A DNA stretch of 61,672 bases from NCBI GenBank assembly GCA_947494535.1, contig CANLVU010000002.1:1-61672 (forward strand), given 5' to 3'. Positions 3,401 through 39,140 of this stretch are shown here, one piece after another. The position numbers and the translations under genes are program-made. A model generated the notes under the pieces. It made no database searches and was not told the origin of the DNA. It saw only the letters and a list, made by a program, of their open reading frames with translations. The DNA is from Cytophagaceae bacterium. Lineage in GTDB: Bacteria > Bacteroidota > Bacteroidia > Cytophagales > Spirosomataceae. Each line of letters opens with the position of its first letter. Positions within the stretch are counted from its first letter, which is position 1.

Positions 3401-4891
3401 GAATAATTGCTTTTGAAAATTCCCTTTTAAGCTAATTTTGTGGTAGAGGTACTTATTGAAAAATATTTCTGACACCTTGCCATCAAAATCAATATTAGCC
3501 GATTTCTTGGCAAATCCACTTCCTTTCAAATGACCTTCCGCATCCAAAGTTCCAAGCGACGGCTCCATCCCTAATAACTTCCCTAACTTAAATTTCTGCA
3601 ATTTGATGTTCCCATCGTAACGCGAAAAGGCCATCGAATCTTGCAAATTCATTTTGACATCCGCCTCAACATAACCTAATCCTGTCTTCAATTTACCAGC
3701 CGTTCTAAAGACTCTATTGTTCCCTTTGAATAATCCATCAAAGGCAACAGGGCCCAAAATAACCATATTTTCAGCGGCTGGCTTGGTGATAAAGGTTCCT
3801 AAATCTTGTGGAAAAAACAAGGACGATCGCATCGTAAAATCCATCTCTGTCTTGTCCACATTGGGCAATCCTTTGAAATTAAAATCGCCTCGCAAAACGC
3901 TTTTAGTGCCGAAGCCTAATTCAAACTTTTTCAAATCCAGTTTCGCCACCGTACCACTAAGTGCACCCTTCAATCGATACATGCCCTTGTAGTCATACAT
4001 CGCCTCCACAAAGCGCCCTAAATCTTCTCCTTTCACCAGCGCTCCATTGAAATCCGCCTGCATATCTACATCGGTTATCCAACGCGTCATCGAGCTCATA
4101 TCGCGGTAATTCACCACAAATTTTCGAGTCACACGGGAGTCATTAAAGCGCAAATCCAATTGATCAAAGCGCATCTGATGATCCGAAATCATAAACAACG
4201 TATTCAGACTTTTCACGTCAAAACCAGTCAATGGATCTTTCGTTCGCAAGCCGATTGCTTGAAGTCCGAGCGTATCATTCTTGATGTAAAAATTCTTGAC
4301 TTTGGAATATACTTTAGCTAACGTAAAGTGCGATATATCGAAATGCCTTGGAGTTGCCTCGCTCTTTCTCGTAAAATCATCGAGCGAAAACGCTCCATCT
4401 ATAACCTCCGCTTCTGGTATGGTAAAAATCGACGATGGACCCTTTTTTGTTGTTTTTACACCACCCGTAATCCAGTTATCAAGGCGAAGTATAAACTCTT
4501 CAATATTCATTTTGCCCGATTTTTTCTCGAAAATTAAATGGACATTGGGTCGGATCAAACGAGCATAATCAAGGCTCGGTTTCCCTGGTTGCAAGAACAA
4601 ATGAGTAATGCTAAAATTTACATCCAGCTGTTCGATTTGGATCATTTTAGCGCCCCAAGGATCTTTTACCTCCAGCCCTTTAATACTTAACTCGTCAAAA
4701 AACTTGACTTGAATTCCTTGAATTTTTACCGGATAACCGATCGCCTTTTCGACTTTAGGCGTTAAATAATTCGCTAGTAAGGTCTGGTTAACGGGAGCTC
4801 TGAGTAGTAGAATAGTTGCAAAAATCAACAAAAAAATCCCCAGCAACCCATACAGGATTGTTTTGATGAAGATTTTGAGATATTTGACCAT
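410..4891 (-). CDS. tamB: TamB/DUF490-type translocation and assembly module protein
   Basis: This 1493-residue protein has one N-terminal membrane anchor (about residues 8-30) followed by an AsmA-like start, where a YLTPKVEKAIG...KIQGI segment leads into repeated beta-strand units. The C-terminal ~400 residues carry the TamB signature region, rich in DI/DL strands and ending in a short barrel-like tail (NQTLGASLLYNKGF). Family knowledge: TamB-like proteins span the periplasm as lipid- or protein-conducting beta-groove bridges and work with an Omp85 partner; no such partner is in this window. The length fits the Bacteroidota family. The gene is divergent from tsaD with only 32 bp between starts. 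Confidence 0.88.
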   Translation of the reverse strand: MVKYLKIFIKTILYGLLGIFLLIFATILLLRAPVNQTLLANYLTPKVEKAIGYPVKIQGIQVKFFDELSIKGLEVKDPWGAKMIQIEQLDVNFSITHLFLQPGKPSLDYARLIRPNVHLIFEKKSGKMNIEEFILRLDNWITGGVKTTKKGPSSIFTIPEAEVIDGAFSLDDFTRKSEATPRHFDISHFTLAKVYSKVKNFYIKNDTLGLQAIGLRTKDPLTGFDVKSLNTLFMISDHQMRFDQLDLRFNDSRVTRKFVVNYRDMSSMTRWITDVDMQADFNGALVKGEDLGRFVEAMYDYKGMYRLKGALSGTVAKLDLKKFELGFGTKSVLRGDFNFKGLPNVDKTEMDFTMRSSLFFPQDLGTFITKPAAENMVILGPVAFDGLFKGNNRVFRTAGKLKTGLGYVEADVKMNLQDSMAFSRYDGNIKLQKFKLGKLLGMEPSLGTLDAEGHLKGSGFAKKSANIDFDGKVSEIFFNKYLYHKISLKGNFQKQLFKGEVSSKDTNLVATMSGLIDLRGSKPMYQMQGEITHSNLHNIHLMDPQVSLSTDFELDFKGDHFDDLEGRTVFYNSTLRTPNKPDLHVELVTLTSENGPGQKRHYKLTSDLVSAEISGEFTPSILQAQLGQLTDEYALYFQKGADERWGYYATRRHEVETKYKADFTVVCHRVDPILTRFFPTVQIGENTVFSGNISKGRTLSVSLEAYPDTLVFGGYQFYQSVFSFQSSKFLGAPEVSSSLVFSSRKQQLNFLTPTENFKLDALWDQGRINFGLDFKQQGEENSAHLAGAWAFEDEGLSLKFKDTYFRILGQDWAMDPANKITIQGQEWKADRVLVANQNQSISLQGSLSNDTTETIKLRANHFQLSTLKPLFATKTTGELNGEIAIQDWYKNTRLDSWILVDSLRLNKFYIGNLQGVGTYLADDKQMDLNLNLNRLGESVLSLTGTYLPYEEEQKLNMNAELNQTDLQILEPFTEGIFSDLKGSASGNLHIGGLPTKPEITGDIVFLKAGAVFDYLKTTMSVSDTVNFTPRTIYAKNWKVLDTEGNKALVNTTLQFPEGKPFELDIQANLDHYKLLNTSRGPNSIYYGLGYASGPMRVSGSVDNLIVSADLKTEKGTRLFIPLDREQDATEAEDYSFVSELKDADLTLVAAAVSTKLQEDGITLDLRLALTPEAYGEVQFDAKKGDVMRMYGSGDIKMNLDKKGAFKMVGDYAIDQGDYTFTLQNLINKKFAIQRGSKISWTGDPLEANVNIKAIYTQYASLFPILLDTTNKGNLPEFKRRYPVDVTISLQDRLLSPRVNFDIGIRDYPKDMTLNGAVTAFTNRIKTDDQELTRQVSNILLFGQLVSPFGGSGLALGNLMGNFTEMLSNQLSNLASKINKDLDISVSLGGGALNQDILSNLQLRASYNFNDRLRITRSGGFTDARNQTSPQILLGDWALEWFVKPDGSLRLKTYNRNVQTTILGSFNSYQINQTLGASLLYNKGFNTFFWQKKK

Positions 4892-4898
4892 ATTGCCG

Positions 4899-4906
4899 TA
4901 TTTTTG
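4899..4906 (+). promoter_or_regulatory. -7 promoter element for tsaD
   Basis: TATTTTTG matches the Bacteroidota -7 consensus TAnnTTTG and sits 17 bp upstream of the tsaD ATG. A TTG at 4875-4877 could be the -33 element (21-bp spacer); it lies inside the first codons of the divergent tamB. Confidence 0.6.
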
Positions 4907-4923
4907 CGCAGAATTCTACTTTT

Positions 4924-5940
4924 ATGAAGCTACTGGCTATTGAATCTTCTTGCGATGAAACTTCGGCTGCCGTCATGGTAGACGGTGTTTTGAAGTCTAA
5001 CATCATCTCGACTCAACTCATCCACACGGAATGGGGTGGCGTCGTTCCCGAATTAGCCAGCAGAGCTCATCAAAAATCGATCATCCCTGTCGTGACAGAG
5101 GCCCTGCAAAAAGCAAATATAAACAAAAATGAACTGAATGCCATTGCCTTCACAAGGGGCCCTGGGCTTTTGGGGGCTTTATTAATCGGCACCTCATTTG
5201 CGAAATCGTTGGCACTTAGTCTTAACATTCCCTTAATCGAAGTAAATCATATGCAGGCGCACGTTTTGGCGCATTTTATTGAGGACCCTAAGCCAGCATT
5301 CCCCTTCCTTTGCCTGACTGTCAGTGGTGGACACACGCAATTGGTTTGGGTAAAATCAGCCCTCGATATGGAGGTTATCGGCGAAACGCTGGACGATGCC
5401 GTGGGCGAGGCCTTTGATAAAACCGCAAAACTGATCGGCCTGCCTTATCCAGGTGGCCCTTTGATCGATAAGTTGGCCAAAGAAGGTAACCCCAATCGCT
5501 TCCCCTTCTCTCTAGGCGAAATGCCCGGTCTAAACTTCAGCTTCTCAGGCATCAAAACGGCCATCCTCTACTTCCTTCAAAAAGAAGTCAAAAACAACCC
5601 AAATTTCATCGAAGAAAACAAAGCAGACATCTGCGCCTCCGTCCAAAAAACGCTCATCGATATGCTTCTTCGCAAAACGAAAAAGGCGATGAAGGAGATG
5701 AATTGTACCCAAATCGCCATCGCCGGCGGCGTCTCCGCTAACTCCGGTTTGCGCAATCGACTTACAGAAATGGGTTCCGAATTAGGTTGGAAAGTATTCA
5801 TTCCCGCCTTCAGCTATTGCACGGATAACGCGGGAATGATCGCCATGGCGGGACACTTTAAAGCAGAATCTGGGGAGTTTTGTGGGCAGGATGTGAGTCC
5901 GTTGGCGAGGTACGAGCTCGCGGCGAAGCCGCTCGCTTAG
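4924..5940 (+). CDS. tsaD: tRNA N6-adenosine threonylcarbamoyltransferase
   Basis: TsaD transfers the threonylcarbamoyl group onto A37 of ANN-decoding tRNAs together with TsaB and TsaE. The N-terminus MKLLAIESSCDETSAA and the metal-binding HMQAH motif (His109, His113) are diagnostic, and SGGHTQL and GGVSANSGLR are conserved ASKHA-fold motifs. The length of 338 residues is normal for the family. The last residues are odd: a 13-nt hairpin (GCGGC-GAA-GCCGC, 5920-5932) of the same build as the downstream array lies in the final codons, and the TAG stop is part of the array's TAGTC spacer. The C-terminal tail therefore appears to be repeat-derived. Confidence 0.97.
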   Translation: MKLLAIESSCDETSAAVMVDGVLKSNIISTQLIHTEWGGVVPELASRAHQKSIIPVVTEALQKANINKNELNAIAFTRGPGLLGALLIGTSFAKSLALSLNIPLIEVNHMQAHVLAHFIEDPKPAFPFLCLTVSGGHTQLVWVKSALDMEVIGETLDDAVGEAFDKTAKLIGLPYPGGPLIDKLAKEGNPNRFPFSLGEMPGLNFSFSGIKTAILYFLQKEVKNNPNFIEENKADICASVQKTLIDMLLRKTKKAMKEMNCTQIAIAGGVSANSGLRNRLTEMGSELGWKVFIPAFSYCTDNAGMIAMAGHFKAESGEFCGQDVSPLARYELAAKPLA

Positions 5941-6227
5941 TCGGCGCATTGCGCCTTAGTCACGACTTCGTCGTCTAGTCGTCACTACGTGACTCAGTCA
6001 TCGCTACGCGATTTAGTCAAAGGGTCGCTGCTACGCAGCTTAGTCATCGCTACGCGATTTAGTCGCCTACGGCTGAGTCGCGACTTCGTCGCTTGGTCAA
6101 AGGGTCGTCACTTTGTGACCAAGGCGCATCGCGCCGACTAAATCGCGTAGCGATGACTAAGCCGAAGGCGACTAAACGACGCAGTCGTGACTAGGACGAA
6201 GTCGACCAAGGCGCATAGCGCCGACTA
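5920..6227. repeat. Array of 13-nt hairpins separated by TAGTC / GACTA
   Basis: Fifteen short perfect hairpins follow each other from 5943 to 6222, and one more lies inside tsaD (5920-5932). Most have a 5-nt arm, 3-nt loop and 5-nt arm; three (6065, 6161, 6195) have 3-nt arms. Arms differ between units (GGCGC, ACGAC, GTCAC, ATCGC, GCTGC, GCGAC) but are always self-complementary. In the left half units are joined by TAGTC or a one-base variant, in the right half by its complement GACTA, so orientation flips around the hairpin at 6107-6119. The word AAAGGGTC occurs twice (6019, 6099) and resembles the 3' end of the facing minus-strand gene. TAG stops of both flanking genes lie in the array. No coding potential was seen. 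Confidence 0.93.
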
Positions 6228-6713
6228 CCCTTTCATCTCCTTCAGCGCATTCCAAAACGCCATCTTCAGCGTCTTCTCCGCATCCGTCAGCGATGAAATA
6301 TAGCGCGGGAAGAAATAGACTAATTTTGATTCGATTTTGTCAATCTCGGTGGTAGGTAATTCTCCTTGCCAAACAGCAGGTTGTTGACCGATAAAAATGT
6401 AACGCTGAGCACTGGTCTCTTTTAAGAATTCGGTGAAACTTGGTTCTTCGTCCGATGGTGTGTAAACTGACCAATCAGCTGGCCCTAAGACTAATGGTGG
6501 AGCGGAGAAAATAAGTTTTAAACGAGCTAGTTCGGTTTCGGCGATTTGGCCTACAACTACCCAAGGAGTGGAGACCTTAGGCTTAACTGCAGCAATAGCC
6601 TCCTGCTCGATGATGACAGCAGGGGATTCCGCTAGCTGTGCCTCTGACTTATCCTGCGGGACCCAATAGATCTCGTCGAACTTGTACAAATCAGCTAATG
6701 AAATCCCCTCCAT
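6225..6713 (-). CDS. Small protein, possibly a divergent DNA polymerase III psi (HolD)-like subunit
   Basis: This 162-residue protein has no signal peptide. The order of elements recalls HolD: a short N-terminal segment with DEIYWVPQD, a strand PWVVVG, a helix and a second strand LVLG, a strand RYIFIGQQ, then a C-terminal SSLTDAEKTLKMAFWNALKEM helix. That last part resembles the psi pattern of Leu-x-x-Leu, Ala/Lys-rich turn and a Leu/Phe-Trp-x-x-Leu end. This is a pattern impression at very low identity, not a proven homology. It starts 9 nt after purA and is probably the last gene of the M16-ispF-rel-fur-purA operon. Its TAG stop lies in the hairpin array. Confidence 0.55.
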   Translation of the reverse strand: MEGISLADLYKFDEIYWVPQDKSEAQLAESPAVIIEQEAIAAVKPKVSTPWVVVGQIAETELARLKLIFSAPPLVLGPADWSVYTPSDEEPSFTEFLKETSAQRYIFIGQQPAVWQGELPTTEIDKIESKLVYFFPRYISSLTDAEKTLKMAFWNALKEMKG

Positions 6714-6722
6714 TTTGATGGT

Positions 6723-8003
6723 TTATGCTAATGAACCTCGTAACACACAAGCCTCGCGGTCTGGACCCGTCGAGATGAAGTTAATGGGTAGGTTCAAGTG
6801 TTTTTCTAAGAATTTGATGTAATCCGCTAATTCGACTGGCAACTCGTTAAAGTCACGCATGCCTTCTAAGCTGCAAGCCCAACCCTTCAAGGTTTCGTAC
6901 ACCGGCTTCACTTTGATATCGGTGATTTCGAAAGGAATTTGGTCGGTGATTGTACCGTCTGGCATTTCGTAAGCCGTGCACACTAGAATTTCGTCAAAGA
7001 TATTTAAGACGTCCGCCTTCATCATAATCAACTGCGTCACGCCATTAATCATCATCGCGTATTTCAAAGCTGGCAAATCGATCCAACCACAACGGCGCGG
7101 ACGACCTGTCGTAGAACCGAATTCGCGGCCCTCTACACGCATGCGCTCGCCTACTTCATCTTCTAATTCCGTAGGAAAAGGACCGGAACCCACGCGGGTC
7201 GCGTAGGCTTTGAAGATACCGAAAACCTCACCGATGTTTTTAGGAGCAACCCCTAAACCCGTACAAGCACCTGCGGTGATTGTATTCGAAGAAGTAACGA
7301 AAGGATAAGAACCGAAGTCTACGTCCAATAGAGAACCTTGTGCACCTTCTGCTAAGATGGTTTTTCCTGCATTGATGGCGTGGTTCACGGAATATTCTGA
7401 ATCCACTAATCGGAATTCCTTCATGAAAGCAACCGCTTCGAAGAATTCCCTTTCGGCTGCTGCTAAATCATATTCAAATTTATATACGTCCAAAATCGCT
7501 TTATGGCGATCAACTAATGCCTTGTATTTGGTAGGAAAATCTGGCGAAATCATATCACCCACGCGTAATCCTTGGCGAGAGATTTTGTCCGTATAGGTAG
7601 GTCCGATTCCCTTTAAAGTGGAACCGATTTTTGCATCACCTTTTGCTTTTTCATACGCCGCATCTAATAAACGGTGCGTAGGTAAGATGATCGACGCTTT
7701 CTTCGAGATCTCTAAGTTCTTGCGCAAGTCTAAATTAAAATGTGCTAAGCCGTCGATTTCTTTTTTAAAGATGATGGGATCCAAAACCACCCCGTTACCG
7801 ATGATGTTTTGAACTTCTTGGCGGAAAATCCCAGAGGGGATTTGATGCAGCACATGCTTGAATCCGTCAAATTCTAAGGTGTGGCCTGCGTTAGGTCCGC
7901 CTTGAAAACGCGCCACTACTTGATACTTGGGTGCTAAAACATCTACGATCTTTCCTTTCCCCTCATCACCCCATTGTAAGCCTAATAATACATCAACTGC
8001 CAT
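6723..8003 (-). CDS. purA: Adenylosuccinate synthetase
   Basis: PurA joins IMP and aspartate with GTP hydrolysis, the first committed step from IMP to AMP. The N-terminal loop LQWGDEGKGK contains the catalytic Asp13, and GGPNAGHT contains His41. The GTP-binding STTGRPRRCGW region and the C-terminal FISTGPDRE are also present. At 426 residues it is full length. It starts 9 nt downstream of fur and ends 9 nt before the small psi-like gene, so it is co-transcribed with rel and fur. This couples purine synthesis to stringent-response genes, an arrangement I recall from other Bacteroidota. guaB, the competing GMP branch, is elsewhere in the window. Confidence 0.98.
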   Translation of the reverse strand: MAVDVLLGLQWGDEGKGKIVDVLAPKYQVVARFQGGPNAGHTLEFDGFKHVLHQIPSGIFRQEVQNIIGNGVVLDPIIFKKEIDGLAHFNLDLRKNLEISKKASIILPTHRLLDAAYEKAKGDAKIGSTLKGIGPTYTDKISRQGLRVGDMISPDFPTKYKALVDRHKAILDVYKFEYDLAAAEREFFEAVAFMKEFRLVDSEYSVNHAINAGKTILAEGAQGSLLDVDFGSYPFVTSSNTITAGACTGLGVAPKNIGEVFGIFKAYATRVGSGPFPTELEDEVGERMRVEGREFGSTTGRPRRCGWIDLPALKYAMMINGVTQLIMMKADVLNIFDEILVCTAYEMPDGTITDQIPFEITDIKVKPVYETLKGWACSLEGMRDFNELPVELADYIKFLEKHLNLPINFISTGPDREACVLRGSLA

Positions 8004-8012
8004 AATATTGTT

Positions 8013-8498
8013 TTATTCTTGATTTCTTGCTTGGTAATTATCTCTGTGTTCACAATTCTTATTCGTACATGAACCGTAAAAAATTAGGGAATGGTGCATT
8101 ACATTGAATTGCAACATTTCACCTACTAAACTCTGGATGGTTTGAACCCGAGGATCACAAAATTCCGTGACTTTGTGGCAATCGGTACAGATTAAATGAT
8201 CGTGTTGACGGCGTCCATACGACTTCTCGAACTGTGCCTGATTGCGACCAAATTGGTGTTTTACTACTAAATCACATTCCACTAACACATCGAGCGTATT
8301 ATACACTGTGGCTCTAGAGACTTGGTATTTCTTGTTTTTCATGGAGATGTACAGCTCCTCCACGTCGAAGTGATCGTCCCGTAAATAGATCTCCTCCAGG
8401 ATCGCAAAGCGCTCTGGAGTCTTCCGCAAACCTTTGTTTTCCAGGTAGGCTGTAAAGATCTTTTTTACTGAATCTAGTTTATCTAATTCTTGGGACAT
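8013..8498 (-). CDS. Fur-family metal-responsive transcriptional regulator
   Basis: The 161-residue protein has the N-terminal winged-helix of the Fur family ([14 protein letters not shown], then [16 protein letters not shown] as recognition helix). The metal-binding C-terminal domain shows [15 protein letters not shown] with a CxxC pair and a second Cys pair in SCTNKNC, as in proteins with a structural zinc site. Whether it senses iron, zinc or peroxide cannot be told from sequence. It lies 47 nt after rel and 9 nt before purA on the same strand. Confidence 0.93.
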
Positions 8499-16548: not shown

Positions 16549-18045
16549 ATGGGGATCGTCATTCGACAAAGTTTAAAGGGTTCAATCGTTACCTATTTGG
16601 GTACGGCGATTGGGACTTTCAACGTGATCTTCCTCTACAATAAGTTTCTTTCACAAGAGCAAGTAGGCCTAATTGCAGGTGCTTTAGTTAGTATTCCCCT
16701 TATTTTCGCTTCATTTACCCAACTAGGAATTCCCCACATTGCGGTACGTTTTTTTCCGCATTTTGATGATCCGGCGAATGGGCATAAAGGTTTCTTTACT
16801 TTTTTATTAATCGCTCCTTTATTTGGTCTCAGCCTTTTTACCTTGGGGTATCTAGCTTTAAAACCCCTCTTTTTCGAGGCCTATAGCACTAATTCTCCAC
16901 TTTTACCTCAGTATTTCTATTACATTATTCCGCTAACAGCCAGTTACCTCTATATGAGTGTGCTGGAGGCTTATGCCCGCGTTCACTTACGAATAGTGGT
17001 CCCAGCGATCATTCGTGAATTGTTTTTACGGGTCTCTAATGGGGTTTTGGTGATTGCTTTTGCCATGGGTTATTTGAGCTTCAATCAATTGATTTTAGCG
17101 ATTACCCTATCCTATGTGGTCGCTGTAGCGGGTTTATTAGCTTACATTAAGCAGTTGAAGCGTTTTTATACCAAAGTTGATTTTTCGTTTTTACGCACCC
17201 CGGTTTTCAAGGAAATGGTTTCCTATGGGGGCTGGGTACTTTTAGCGGGTGCGAGTTTTACCCTCATCCAGCACATCGAAAAAATCATGTTGCCGGCCTA
17301 TATGGGTGGTTTGAGTACGACGGCGATTTTTGATATTAATTCTCGGATGGCGATTATGATTTCGATACCTCGGAATGTGATTGCGGCGATTGCCGCGCCC
17401 ATTTTAGCCCAGGCTTGGAATCGAAATGACCGGGAGAATATTCAGGATATCTACCAAAAATCTTCCTTAAATCTCCTCCTCATCGGTTGCGTCCTTTTCC
17501 TGCTGATCTGGTGTAATTTGGACTTCATCTATACCATCATCCCGCGCCACGAAATCTACGAGGCGGGTCGCTGGGTGGTCTTAATGGTGGGTTTAAGTAA
17601 GATTATCGATATGGGAACGGGCTTGAATTCAGAGGTGTTGATTAACTCCAAATACTACCGCTATGACCTCGTTTTTTACATTATCCTCGCGGTGGGTTTA
17701 GTAGTGGGTAATCTAATCTTGATTCCATTATATTCTTATAACGGCGCTGCCCTGGCTTCACTATTAGCCTTAGCGGGGTATAATTTGTTGAAATTTGGCT
17801 TCATCTGGTGGAAACTAGACCTTCAACCGTTTGATTTTAGATCGTTGGGGATTTTGCTGGTTAGTGTACTTATCTATTTTATTGTTTCCCAAATCCCAGT
17901 TATCGAAGGCAGTCCTTTAATTGCCTGGCTTTTAAATGTGGGAGTACGAAGTGCCGCAATTAGTGGTCTATTTATCCTAGCAGTTACTAGATTCAAATTA
18001 TCACCTGACATCAGCGAGCTAGTGATTAATTGGTTTAAGAAATGA
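16549..18045 (+). CDS. Polysaccharide flippase (Wzx/MATE-like)
   Basis: This 498-residue protein is almost entirely membrane-spanning, with about 12-14 hydrophobic segments and the usual Wzx start (IRQSLKGSIVTYLGTAIGTFNVIFLY). The C-terminal half resembles the polysaccharide-synthesis C domain. It would move undecaprenyl-linked repeat units across the inner membrane. No O-antigen polymerase gene is visible nearby. The next glycosyltransferase gene starts inside its stop codon (ATGA, 18042-18045), so the two are translationally coupled. Confidence 0.9.
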   Translation: MGIVIRQSLKGSIVTYLGTAIGTFNVIFLYNKFLSQEQVGLIAGALVSIPLIFASFTQLGIPHIAVRFFPHFDDPANGHKGFFTFLLIAPLFGLSLFTLGYLALKPLFFEAYSTNSPLLPQYFYYIIPLTASYLYMSVLEAYARVHLRIVVPAIIRELFLRVSNGVLVIAFAMGYLSFNQLILAITLSYVVAVAGLLAYIKQLKRFYTKVDFSFLRTPVFKEMVSYGGWVLLAGASFTLIQHIEKIMLPAYMGGLSTTAIFDINSRMAIMISIPRNVIAAIAAPILAQAWNRNDRENIQDIYQKSSLNLLLIGCVLFLLIWCNLDFIYTIIPRHEIYEAGRWVVLMVGLSKIIDMGTGLNSEVLINSKYYRYDLVFYIILAVGLVVGNLILIPLYSYNGAALASLLALAGYNLLKFGFIWWKLDLQPFDFRSLGILLVSVLIYFIVSQIPVIEGSPLIAWLLNVGVRSAAISGLFILAVTRFKLSPDISELVINWFKK

Positions 18046-19238
18046 AAATAATGTCCCTGGCCGGTGGCCTGCCTCACTATTATAACCTAGTCCTAAACAA
18101 ATTGCAACGCGATTTTGGGGTGGAGGTTTGCGTGGTGGTGCCCACAGAAAAAGGGGCAACTTTAGGCGCTGGAGTTTACACATCGGACAAAGGCATCGAA
18201 TTCAAAGTTTTTCGCAGAGAGGAGTATACGACCTATTATGGCAAGAAGTTTTTCCGTGGTTTGAAGGAATTGATTTTGGCAGAAAAACCAGACGTCTTAA
18301 TGGTCAACTGGCCATACCAAGCCTCTTTTGTCTTTTATCCAGGTTGGTACCGATTTTTGCGCCGCAATCACGTTGCTCTCGTCTCAAAAGAGATTCCATT
18401 TCAAGTTCCCCATTATAACGAGGCCATTTCCTATTACTTACAAGGCGGCGGGGTGACTGAAAATAACCAAGCGCATCAATCGAATCCTTCCCTTCTAGCA
18501 CGATTAAAGTTCTTCATCGTACGCGAAACGAGAAAGCGTTTCTCTAATCTGGTAGACGCGCACATCAATTATTTAGATGAGGCCGTTGCTTTACATGGAA
18601 GCTATGGCGTTCCGGCTGAGAAAGTATTTATTACGGCGAATTCCCCGGATACGGATGCCCTTTTACATACTGTAAATGAATTAAAAAACGTTGCGGCTAA
18701 TCCATTCCGACTCTTGCATATCGGACGTCTGGTAAAATGGAAACAAGTAGATTTATTGATCGAGGCCGCCATTGCCTTGCGCGCGAAATTCCCGCAAACG
18801 GAATTAAGTATCGTGGGTGATGGGCCGGAACTGGCGGCCTTAAAAGCGGCAGCTTTGGGTCATGATTTCATTCAGTTCCACGGGGGTATTTATGATCCCA
18901 AAGAACTAGGTAAAATCACCTGTGAGTCAGGAATCTACGTCTTAGCCGGCATGGGCGGATTGTCCATTAATGAGGCGATGTGTTTCTCGAAACCGGTGGT
19001 GTGTTCCGTGGCAGATGGAACCGAAAAACGCCTCGTTCGCGAGGGTTACAATGGATATTACTTCGAATCGGGTTCAGTAGAAAGTCTGCAAGAGGTAATT
19101 GAAAAGCTTTTTTCAAATCCAGAGATGATTATGAAGATGGGCCAAAGGTCTAGAGAGATTATTGAAAAGGAAATTAATATACATTCGGTGCTATCTAACT
19201 ATATTGAAGCGTTCAAGTGGGCAGTGGACAGTCGCTAG
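18042..19238 (+). CDS. Glycosyltransferase family 4 with repeat-derived C-terminus
   Basis: The 398-residue GT-B enzyme has a C-terminal domain with RLLHIGRLVKWKQVDLLIEA, LSIVGDGPELAAL and a GLSINEAMCFSKPVVCS segment in the usual place of the donor-binding Glu motif. The N-terminus MKIMSLAGGLPHYYNLVL is typical of acceptor-side GT4 domains. Its last codons (Asp-Ser-Arg-stop) are formed by the first heptamers of a downstream repeat (CAGTCGC then TAGTCGC), so the stop codon is part of the repeat. It begins in the stop codon of the flippase. Confidence 0.9.
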   Translation: MKIMSLAGGLPHYYNLVLNKLQRDFGVEVCVVVPTEKGATLGAGVYTSDKGIEFKVFRREEYTTYYGKKFFRGLKELILAEKPDVLMVNWPYQASFVFYPGWYRFLRRNHVALVSKEIPFQVPHYNEAISYYLQGGGVTENNQAHQSNPSLLARLKFFIVRETRKRFSNLVDAHINYLDEAVALHGSYGVPAEKVFITANSPDTDALLHTVNELKNVAANPFRLLHIGRLVKWKQVDLLIEAAIALRAKFPQTELSIVGDGPELAALKAAALGHDFIQFHGGIYDPKELGKITCESGIYVLAGMGGLSINEAMCFSKPVVCSVADGTEKRLVREGYNGYYFESGSVESLQEVIEKLFSNPEMIMKMGQRSREIIEKEINIHSVLSNYIEAFKWAVDSR

Positions 19239-19335
19239 TCGCTAGTCGCTAGTCGAGAGTAAAGATTATAGAGTAGAGAGTATAGATAATAGAGGACAAT
19301 ATCTCTACTCTTTACTCTCCTATCTCTAATCTAAA
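19229..19335. repeat. Heptamer repeat patch with inverted second half
   Basis: From CAGTCGC at 19229 the sequence goes on in 7-bp steps: TAGTCGC twice, TAGTCGA, then a second unit class starting with GAGT or GAT (GAGTAAA, GATTATA, GAGTAGA, GAGTATA, GATAATA). From about 19301 to 19332 the complement appears (units such as TACTCTT, TACTCTC, CTATCTC), so the two halves can fold on each other. The direct step from TAGTC-type to GAGTA-type units links this patch with the arrays at 27696, 27872 and 38431. It fills most of the gap between the GT4 and wecB genes. Confidence 0.85.
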
Positions 19336-38430: not shown

Positions 38431-38535
38431 TAGTCACTAGTCGATAGTCACTAGTCACTAGTCGCTAGTCGCTAGTCGCTAGTCACTAGTCGAGAGTCGA
38501 TAGTCGCTAGTCGCTAGTCGAGAGTCACTAGTCAG
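38431..38535. repeat. Array of 15 heptamers, TAGTCNN type
   Basis: Fifteen uninterrupted 7-bp units on the plus strand: TAGTCGC (5), TAGTCAC (4), TAGTCGA (3), and one each of GAGTCGA, GAGTCAC and TAGTCAG. The last unit runs into the four-helix-bundle gene and supplies its TAG stop and the preceding GAC codon. It is the inverse of the array at 38982-39140, so a transcript through both could form a long stem. Confidence 0.95.
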
Positions 38536-38911
38536 CCCTGTATTTTCTAATATCTTGTCCATTAAGTGTTTTCATTAAACCAAAAAGCATTCTGCCAATT
38601 TCAGTCAATTGAGCATATATAATGTCAAATTCGTCTTGACTTATATATTTCAACTTGAACGCTATGAAAATCATAGATTTAACTTCACTGCACGAACCTT
38701 GAGCAATAAACAAAAAGCGTCTAAAATCACGATCAGATCCACGTTCAAAACCCTCAGCTATATTATTCGAAATTGATATTGATGCCCGTTGAATCTGATT
38801 CTTAAAACCGAAATCAGAAACTAAGTGAAACCTTTTATAAATTTCTATGGTATGTGTGATGGCTTTTTGCCAAACTAACAAATCCTCAAAAGTTCTAATT
38901 TTCATAATCAT
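38528..38911 (-). CDS. Four-helix-bundle protein (S23/IVP, TIGR02436-like)
   Basis: The 127-residue protein begins IRTFEDLLVWQKAITHTIEIYKRF and has SDFGFKNQIQRASISISNNIAEGFERGSDRDFRRFLFIAQGSCSEVKSM as its core pattern, the hallmark of this family. These proteins were first noted in intervening sequences of 23S rRNA genes and are structurally related to the Avd accessory proteins of diversity-generating retroelements; their function is not known. No rRNA gene or reverse transcriptase is near. It lies between two inverted heptamer arrays, and its stop codon is repeat-derived. Start may be 38911 or the ATG at 38905. A near-match -7 element (TAAACTTG, 38928-38935) precedes it. Confidence 0.92.
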   Translation of the reverse strand: MIMKIRTFEDLLVWQKAITHTIEIYKRFHLVSDFGFKNQIQRASISISNNIAEGFERGSDRDFRRFLFIAQGSCSEVKSMIFIAFKLKYISQDEFDIIYAQLTEIGRMLFGLMKTLNGQDIRKYRAD

Positions 38912-38981
38912 CGATTTTGAAACAACCCAAGTTTAAATTTTGCTTAACCAATTCCTATCTACTAACTTGTATTCTATTTTT

Positions 38982-39140
38982 CTATCGACTATCGACTATC
39001 GACTATCGACTATCGACTATCGACTATCGACTATCGACTATCGACTATCGACTAGCGACTAGCGACTAGCGACTAGCGACTAGCGACTAGCGACTAGCGA
39101 CTAGCGACTAGCGACTAGCGACTAGCGACTAGCGACTATT
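38982..39140. repeat. Pure heptamer array: 9 GACTATC units then 12 GACTAGC units
   Basis: After a partial CTATC, nine perfect GACTATC units occupy 38987-39049 and twelve perfect GACTAGC units occupy 39050-39133, closing with GACTATT. The sharp switch from one unit to the other and the lack of any other variant point to recent expansion by slippage or templated copying. It lies upstream of the four-helix-bundle gene on one strand and directly upstream of the engB promoter on the other. The 70 bp between it and the gene start hold only AT-rich sequence. Confidence 0.96.

Follow-up and report, generated by a model that had tools for sequence, protein, structure and literature searches.

A lineage-specific, intergenic and dispersed family of mini-hairpin repeats occupies the genome of the freshwater bacterium from which the analysed DNA derives and those of several relatives within Aquirufa. 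The repeated unit, its dispersal, the covariation of its arms, its strand polarity, the TTAGTC...GACTAA order of neighbouring blocks and the repeated copies of units are directly visible in the DNA. Our tentative interpretation, held with somewhat less than even confidence, is that these arrays are folded repeat DNA, specific to one strand and maintained by structural constraint, a REPIN-like element that, we infer, would be derived from 7-bp arrays.

Within the window, i.e., the whole stretch of 61,672 nucleotides analysed here, 15 mini-hairpins lie at 5938–6227 between a tsaD-like gene (4924–5940, + strand; named from its sequence) and a converging gene of 162 amino acids without a Pfam match (6225–6713, − strand). 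Twelve have 5-bp arms and 3-nt loops, pair perfectly and are spread over 5943–6222 in the hairpin listing; the other three have 3-bp arms and were read directly (GCC-TAC-GGC at 6065–6073, GCC-GAA-GGC at 6161–6169 and GAC-GAA-GTC at 6195–6203). One more mini-hairpin, GCGGC-GAA-GCCGC, is located within the end of tsaD (5920–5932), and listing and direct reading together bear out the count given in an earlier note on this DNA, 15 in the array and one in tsaD. That note had also described at least six varied but self-complementary arm sequences, and eight are found in the gap (GGCGC, ACGAC, GTCAC, ATCGC, GCTGC, GCGAC, GCC and GAC). The left block (5938–6119; GACTAA-type on the − strand) comprises nine hairpins, seven of which are counted under the automated block rule, has TTAGTC joiners on the + strand and is broken by two AAAGGGTC inserts. 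The right block (6117–6227, + strand) comprises six hairpins with the joiners GACTA(A) or GACCA(A), and orientation flips at about 6117–6123. The joiners described previously, TAGTC on the left and GACTA on the right, are thus confirmed with variants (CAGTC, GAGTC and TGGTC on the left, GACCA on the right). The TAC and TTC loops that had been reported as frequent are found on the + strand in seven of the 15 hairpins, each in the left half, but the right half has other loops (ATC, GTA, GAA, GCA, GAA and ATA on the same strand). Both flanking genes end in a TAG drawn from the outermost joiners: the tsaD stop (5938–5940) is the TAG of the first TAGTC, and that of the converging gene is the complement of the CTA in the last GACTA.

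The array is real, as had been proposed, but the tsaD gap is only one site of a genome-wide family. A search of the whole genome and of relatives, as suggested in the earlier note, revealed the family to be dispersed in its own genome and in congeners. The window genome (G000) yielded 49 matches to the array, a total that covers the array itself and counts some places twice, once per strand. Against three hits for the reversed control pattern, the spaced motif GACYAA-N13-GACYA has 43 in this genome, and a tsaD-type array is therefore not a product of chance. Carriers make up eight of the 25 Aquirufa genomes examined, own genome included; motif and control counts in the other seven are 76/7 (G007), 83/3 (G019), 67/5 (G013), 82/5 (G008), 83/0 (G021), 31/3 (G023) and 17/3 (G002). 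Five further congeners display no excess of the motif (1–4 vs. 3–8 for the control), and G018 has one weak match to the array and no excess over the control. A strict motif, GACTAANNNNCGNAGNNNNGACTA, was detected 22 times in the window genome and in none of 147 other genomes of the order, one of which (G017) is a congener. Tandem blocks hold up to 13 hairpin units and may consist of copies of a single unit, e.g., six GACTAAATCGCGAAGCGAT at G019 C5:35502–35705. In G007, a dnaA-like match was observed at position 449, and a putative clustering of arrays towards the terminus of this genome was considered. Phage and plasmid collections contained no match to the family; 11 viral contig stretches match the strict motif but none has fully paired arms, so they were taken as chance matches, and spread by phages or plasmids was rejected. 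The window genome is split into 143 contigs and several array matches fall at contig starts (e.g., C107 and C69), as an assembly artefact might produce. However, the same arrays stand in the single-contig assembly G007 and in the assembly of the freshwater isolate A. antheringensis 30S-ANTBAC (G019), which makes an artefact so very unlikely that it can practically be dismissed.

The hairpin unit reads GAC(T/C)AA, a 5-nt arm, a 3-nt loop and the second arm. Covariation was analysed in every GACYAA-N13-GACYR unit in the loci retrieved from nine carriers, record L044 being the ninth, irrespective of pairing. Among 290 units selected by their spacers in this manner, 255 are paired throughout the five-base stem, 28 contain a single mismatch and seven contain more; the perfect units represent 21 arm types. 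In the 103 distinct units, which include a few chance matches to spacers, 95.5% of cells pair (vs. a shuffled mean of 66.7%), 187 cells carry changes on both sides (vs. 57.9) and the covariation score is 0.872 (vs. 0.293), values each reached by none of 500 shuffles. All five pairs have some change on both sides, an outcome reached by 76 of the 500 shuffles, and sliding the partners against each other left at most 56% paired. The central observation of the earlier note, that arms vary and yet stay complementary, accordingly lies far above chance. Its view that ordinary duplication plays no part is not supported, as few arm types recur over the 255 units and a given unit or units may be repeated in tandem within an array.

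Orthologous gaps offer a second look at arm changes. Twelve pairwise comparisons, some sharing a genome and hence not independent, provided 51 alignable hairpins, of which a few pairs are possibly not homologous; 22 were identical and 25 had loop changes. Arm-pair changes kept pairing in 16 cases and broke it in six, under two rules that both favour conserved pairing: the first sequence had to be perfectly paired, and aligned pairs with three or more differences were left out as not homologous. Mismatched arms in relatives had been named as evidence against selection on structure. The 16 changes mostly dispel this objection, but the six of 22 that break pairing are contrary to our preferred model. 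A possible loop flip, the footprint expected of template switching, was seen between CCGAC-GCA-GTCGG in L156 and L178 and CCGAC-TAC-GTCGG in L167.

The units are polar. Read on the GACTAA strand, the loops of the 255 perfect units are GNA in 172, ANA in 40, TNC in 13 and other in 30 cases, and the 83 units without a GNA loop likewise run counter to the preferred model. A C-G pair closes the stem in 279 of 290 units, GNA loops are absent from the arms GGCGC, GCGGC, ACGGC and GACGC (0 of 30), and the linker is exactly GACTAA before 194 of 236 perfect C-GNA-G hairpins (those followed by GACT or GACYA). Where four or five of the positions pair (283 units), mismatches on this strand comprise 20 G.T, four A.C and four others, an A.C on the GACTAA strand being a G.T on the opposite one. 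A looser set of 433, with some background sequence included, displays G.T and A.C at 28:7 with 21 others (p = 5e-4), and the distinct 13-mers within it at 24:7 with 19 others (p = 0.003). Because mismatches are mostly G.T and seldom A.C, it seems to be on the GACTAA strand that pairing counts. This asymmetry favours selection on structure, although a mutation bias between the strands could explain part of the G.T excess. Transitions account for 20 of 35 single-pair neighbours among arms vs. one third by chance (p = 0.004), an excess that a general transition bias could also give. In energy models, DNA folding energies differ only slightly between the strands, another point against the preferred model.

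Alternatively, the palindromes could be written by mutation, with short-range template switching at replication copying arm onto arm, as in quasipalindrome correction, and on a larger scale half onto half, and no selection acting on structure. According to PMC8794818, template switching gives rise to hairpins, brings about compensatory changes and flips loops; it is also reported to homogenise the arms of inverted repeats (PMC8604942), and quasipalindrome mutations are known in E. coli (PMC7202029). Such published precedents lend weight to this explanation, as do the TNC loops, the one possible loop flip among homologous hairpins and the inverted flanks at a shared PF05635 locus (see below), which differ between species and usually match within a locus. 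However, template switching predicts neither the G.T over A.C asymmetry nor the frequent GNA loops, the C-G closing pair and the near-invariant linker; loop flips are few, and PMC8794818 calls its own evidence on the maintenance of short stems circumstantial. We regard mutational writing in place of selection as the main alternative, though a rather unlikely one. Nonetheless, template switching may be a means of changing both halves together, and the co-ordinated replacement of both halves and the possible loop flip favour a palindrome-writing mechanism.

Placement of blocks was examined in stretches of G007, G000 and G019, many of which were chosen for holding arrays; genes there were defined by simple ORF calls. 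Adjacent blocks on opposite strands follow the order TTAGTC then GACTAA in all 18 cases, and two-block sites are consequently loose palindromes; the loose large palindrome described at the tsaD gap stands, and the order recurs in three genomes. In a looser listing of the same genomes, 65 clusters of at least two units include 20 with the order − then + and one with the order + then − (L157), whose two − units are lone 4-bp hairpins more than 150 bp off and were dropped under the stricter rule. Of 70 intergenic blocks of at least two units, convergent gaps contain 36, tandem gaps 23 and divergent gaps 11, vs. 65, 102 and 92 of 259 background gaps. Fifty-seven of these blocks are closest to the gene edge expected from the TTAGTC–GACTAA order and 13 are not (p = 1e-7). 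Blocks face the 3' side of a gene in 46 cases and the 5' side in 24, and the array TAG is the stop codon in 16 of the 46. Orientation is alike in convergent, tandem and divergent gaps and follows the gap rather than transcription, which argues against a purely mRNA-level role.

These data bear on the idea that the arrays act in RNA at gene ends through mRNA 3' protection, attenuation or bidirectional termination. The enrichment in convergent gaps (36 of 70 vs. 65 of 259), the stop codons supplied by sense blocks, the tolerance of G.T or G.U and the stable RNA fold of 5900–6260 (z = −11.7) are consistent with such an element; the z value mainly reflects the large palindrome, since in that fold much of one half of the array is paired with the other. 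On the other hand, orientation ignores transcription, 24 of the 70 blocks face a gene start, no intrinsic terminator (G+C stem plus T-run) was found in 5880–6300 and thus none in the window array, and Rfam models had no match in 4800–8200 at E up to 1. Furthermore, at convergent gaps the mRNAs of the two flanking genes carry the TTAGTC strand, without GNA loops, beside the stop codon. We consider an RNA-level element unlikely. Stems resembling terminators, spotted by eye between array halves, were not borne out in scans of L149 and L150, which list the array hairpins only.

Relatives differ in what fills the tsaD gap. Among the sequences compared at this site, hairpins occur in the window, L009, L010, L044 and G007. 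L011–L015, with TsaD 96–97% identical, have no hairpins at this gap but other short repeats, which invert mid-gap in four of them; the L013 sequence stops inside the gap. In L011, L014, L020, L028 and L036 the gap is convergent and its repeats are species-specific and inverted; AAAGAGC, TAGAGAG and GGTGAAT-like heptamers as well as GTAGAGACGCGATACCTCGCGTCT palindromes were observed among them. The last TsaD residues of the window, ELAAKPLA, are missing from the array-free tsaD ends of L011 and L012. An array-derived TsaD tail (ELAAKPLA or similar) was noticed in the array-bearing L009, L010 and L044 and in the window (5920–5940).

Tandem repeats with a 7-bp period occur elsewhere in the window. 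A 23S_rRNA_IVP (PF05635) gene (38528–38911, − strand) stands between a left array of TAGTCGC × 14.7 (38431–38533, − strand; GACTA-type on that strand) and a right array of CTAGCGA × 22.4 (38982–39138, + strand), both of period 7, unlike the 19-bp array in the tsaD gap. A short TAGTCGC array (19230–19255, + strand) contributes the final codons and the stop codon of the gene at 18042–19238. The hairpin family and TAGTCGC have a GACTA core in common, and in G007, G019 and G013 the hairpin family sits at another PF05635 locus. In one stretch of G007 (160001–180000; L124), several heptamer families were observed side by side with hairpin units in shared gaps. Only one PF05635 gene was found in the window genome, which is incomplete; across the genus such genes are present in 28 of 38 genomes, including all eight hairpin carriers, and in the order as a whole 104 of the 148 genomes sampled contain the family.

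The association of PF05635 genes with inverted arrays was tested on best-scoring loci rather than a random draw. With a fixed gene position, 25 of 30 Aquirufa loci have inverted flanks vs. 24 of 4,200 random positions. With gene borders resolved, for which five of the 30 loci were skipped, inverted flanks accompany 24 of 25 genes (vs. 2 of 178 control ORFs) and 7-bp-period arrays are found on both sides of 18 of 25 (vs. 1 of 178). In other genera of the same order (three of 30 loci skipped), 7-bp-period arrays occur on both sides of 8 of 27 PF05635 genes (vs. 0 of 126 controls) and on either side of 19 of 27 (vs. 15 of 126), and inverted flanks at 7 of 27 (vs. 5 of 126). Sixteen of the 30 Aquirufa loci (L183–L198, window included; only one flank was found in L184) are one and the same locus, with flanking proteins about 87–99% identical and neighbours that presumably are hemE and engB. 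The arrays at this shared locus differ, being TAGTCGC, AGTAGTC, CAGTAAT, GGCAGTA, CAGTAGA, AGTTGTC or a 15-mer, AGTCCGAAGGGAAAG; the repeat families are partly related and usually mirrored on the two sides. Fifty-nine 7-bp arrays were counted in 1,000 kb of four PF05635 genomes vs. eight in 879 kb of ten genomes without the family, and G005, one of the four, contained none in 200 kb; since sampling was not random and the genomes used are related and in several cases incomplete, density tracking PF05635 presence is suggestive only. Overall, the hairpin arrays seem to be part of a wider pattern of inverted 7-bp arrays bracketing PF05635 genes. The PF05635-kind protein has been described as without known function (PMC4990558). 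A bolder reading, which we regard as rather improbable, is that PF05635 proteins and inverted short tandem arrays constitute one Cytophagales system: the protein would handle the arrays' folded single strands and drive fold-back copying that rewrites hairpin arms and both halves at once, each species would write its own repeats into the same gaps, and mini-hairpin arrays would be the most structured product.

In our preferred reading of structurally constrained, strand-specific DNA, the unit is a strand-polar mini-hairpin with a fixed GAC(T/C)AA linker, a free stem, a C-G closing pair and mostly a GNA loop. The folded, single-stranded GACTAA strand may be the form that is recognised or propagated; we favour it because the loop rule, the closing pair and the mismatch bias point there and because orientation ignores transcription. 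Structure and linker would be kept while stem letters drift, mainly via G.T intermediates. The paired halves could act as a REPIN-like non-autonomous element served by machinery other than a Y1 transposase, and the family may have arisen from the inverted 7-bp arrays that bracket PF05635 genes, as the common GACTA core suggests. Arrays at gene ends supply stop codons, and a benefit to the host would not be required. With structure conserved, sequence free and apparently only one strand involved, the family provides a natural experiment on the upkeep of palindromes, folding selection vs. template switching. Different arrays fill one gap in species with nearly identical flanking genes, and the fact that stand-alone PF05635 genes are associated with inverted 7-bp arrays offers a first handle on that protein family.

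REPs have a linker tetranucleotide. Similarly, the hairpin family has a conserved GACTAA linker at its foot and inverted doublets in intergenic DNA. Short hairpin-forming repeats in inverted doublets, intergenic and in many copies, characterise REPs and REPINs, and compensatory changes are reported for REPIN hairpins (PMC3116915), all of which would fit mobilisation of a REP/REPIN element by a RAYT. However, stem sequence is not conserved here (21 perfect arm types), stems are free under the C-GNA-G rule, blocks are tandem, and a Y1 transposase (PF01797) was matched in none of the eight carriers, among them G007, a single contig, and G019, which is 99% complete. PF01797 is present in 12 of 38 genus genomes, all among the 30 that are not listed as carriers, 17 of which were covered by the array survey. 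With carriers lacking a Y1 match, mobilisation by RAYT is close to refuted, and we reject it as highly improbable. Reverse transcriptase as the writer showed no clear correlation (three of eight carriers vs. two of 30 others). The 5–6 bp joiners and recurring hairpins are unlike the identical repeats and unique spacers of a CRISPR array. Integron attC hairpins would flank cassette genes; no gene or other ORF lies between the halves at the tsaD gap.

Other known repeats resemble parts of the pattern. By a published rule, DNA mini-hairpins are extraordinarily stable when a GNA loop sits on G-C pairs (PMC4686876), a likeness to the present loops; the examples taken from that account are synthetic fragments and aptamer parts, whereas ours are genomic repeats. 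The intergenic heptamer TAACTGA, reported from Beggiatoaceae, cyanobacteria and five Bacteroidetes (PMC4679880), resembles the TAGTCGC arrays of the window in forming 7-bp tandem units between genes and near gene ends. TAACTGA heptamers are mainly direct repeats before start codons, whereas the arrays here form inverted pairs, often around PF05635 genes, and the tsaD-gap array with its 19-bp period lacks the 7-bp period; the heptamer account mentions neither S23 nor a helix bundle. Intervening sequences (IVS) of 23S rRNA share a PF05635-kind ORF bordered by complementary sequences (PMC4990558). Such an ORF is absent from the tsaD gap but present at 38431–39138, apparently outside an rRNA gene; unlike an IVS, the PF05635 gene here stands alone between genes and its borders are tandem arrays. 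Searches of the open-access literature turned up no account of the hairpin family, nor of PF05635 genes flanked by tandem arrays. Each family tested, including REPINs, heptamers and IVS, has at least one defining feature that is missing from the hairpin arrays, which look like a little-known kind of structured intergenic repeat DNA.
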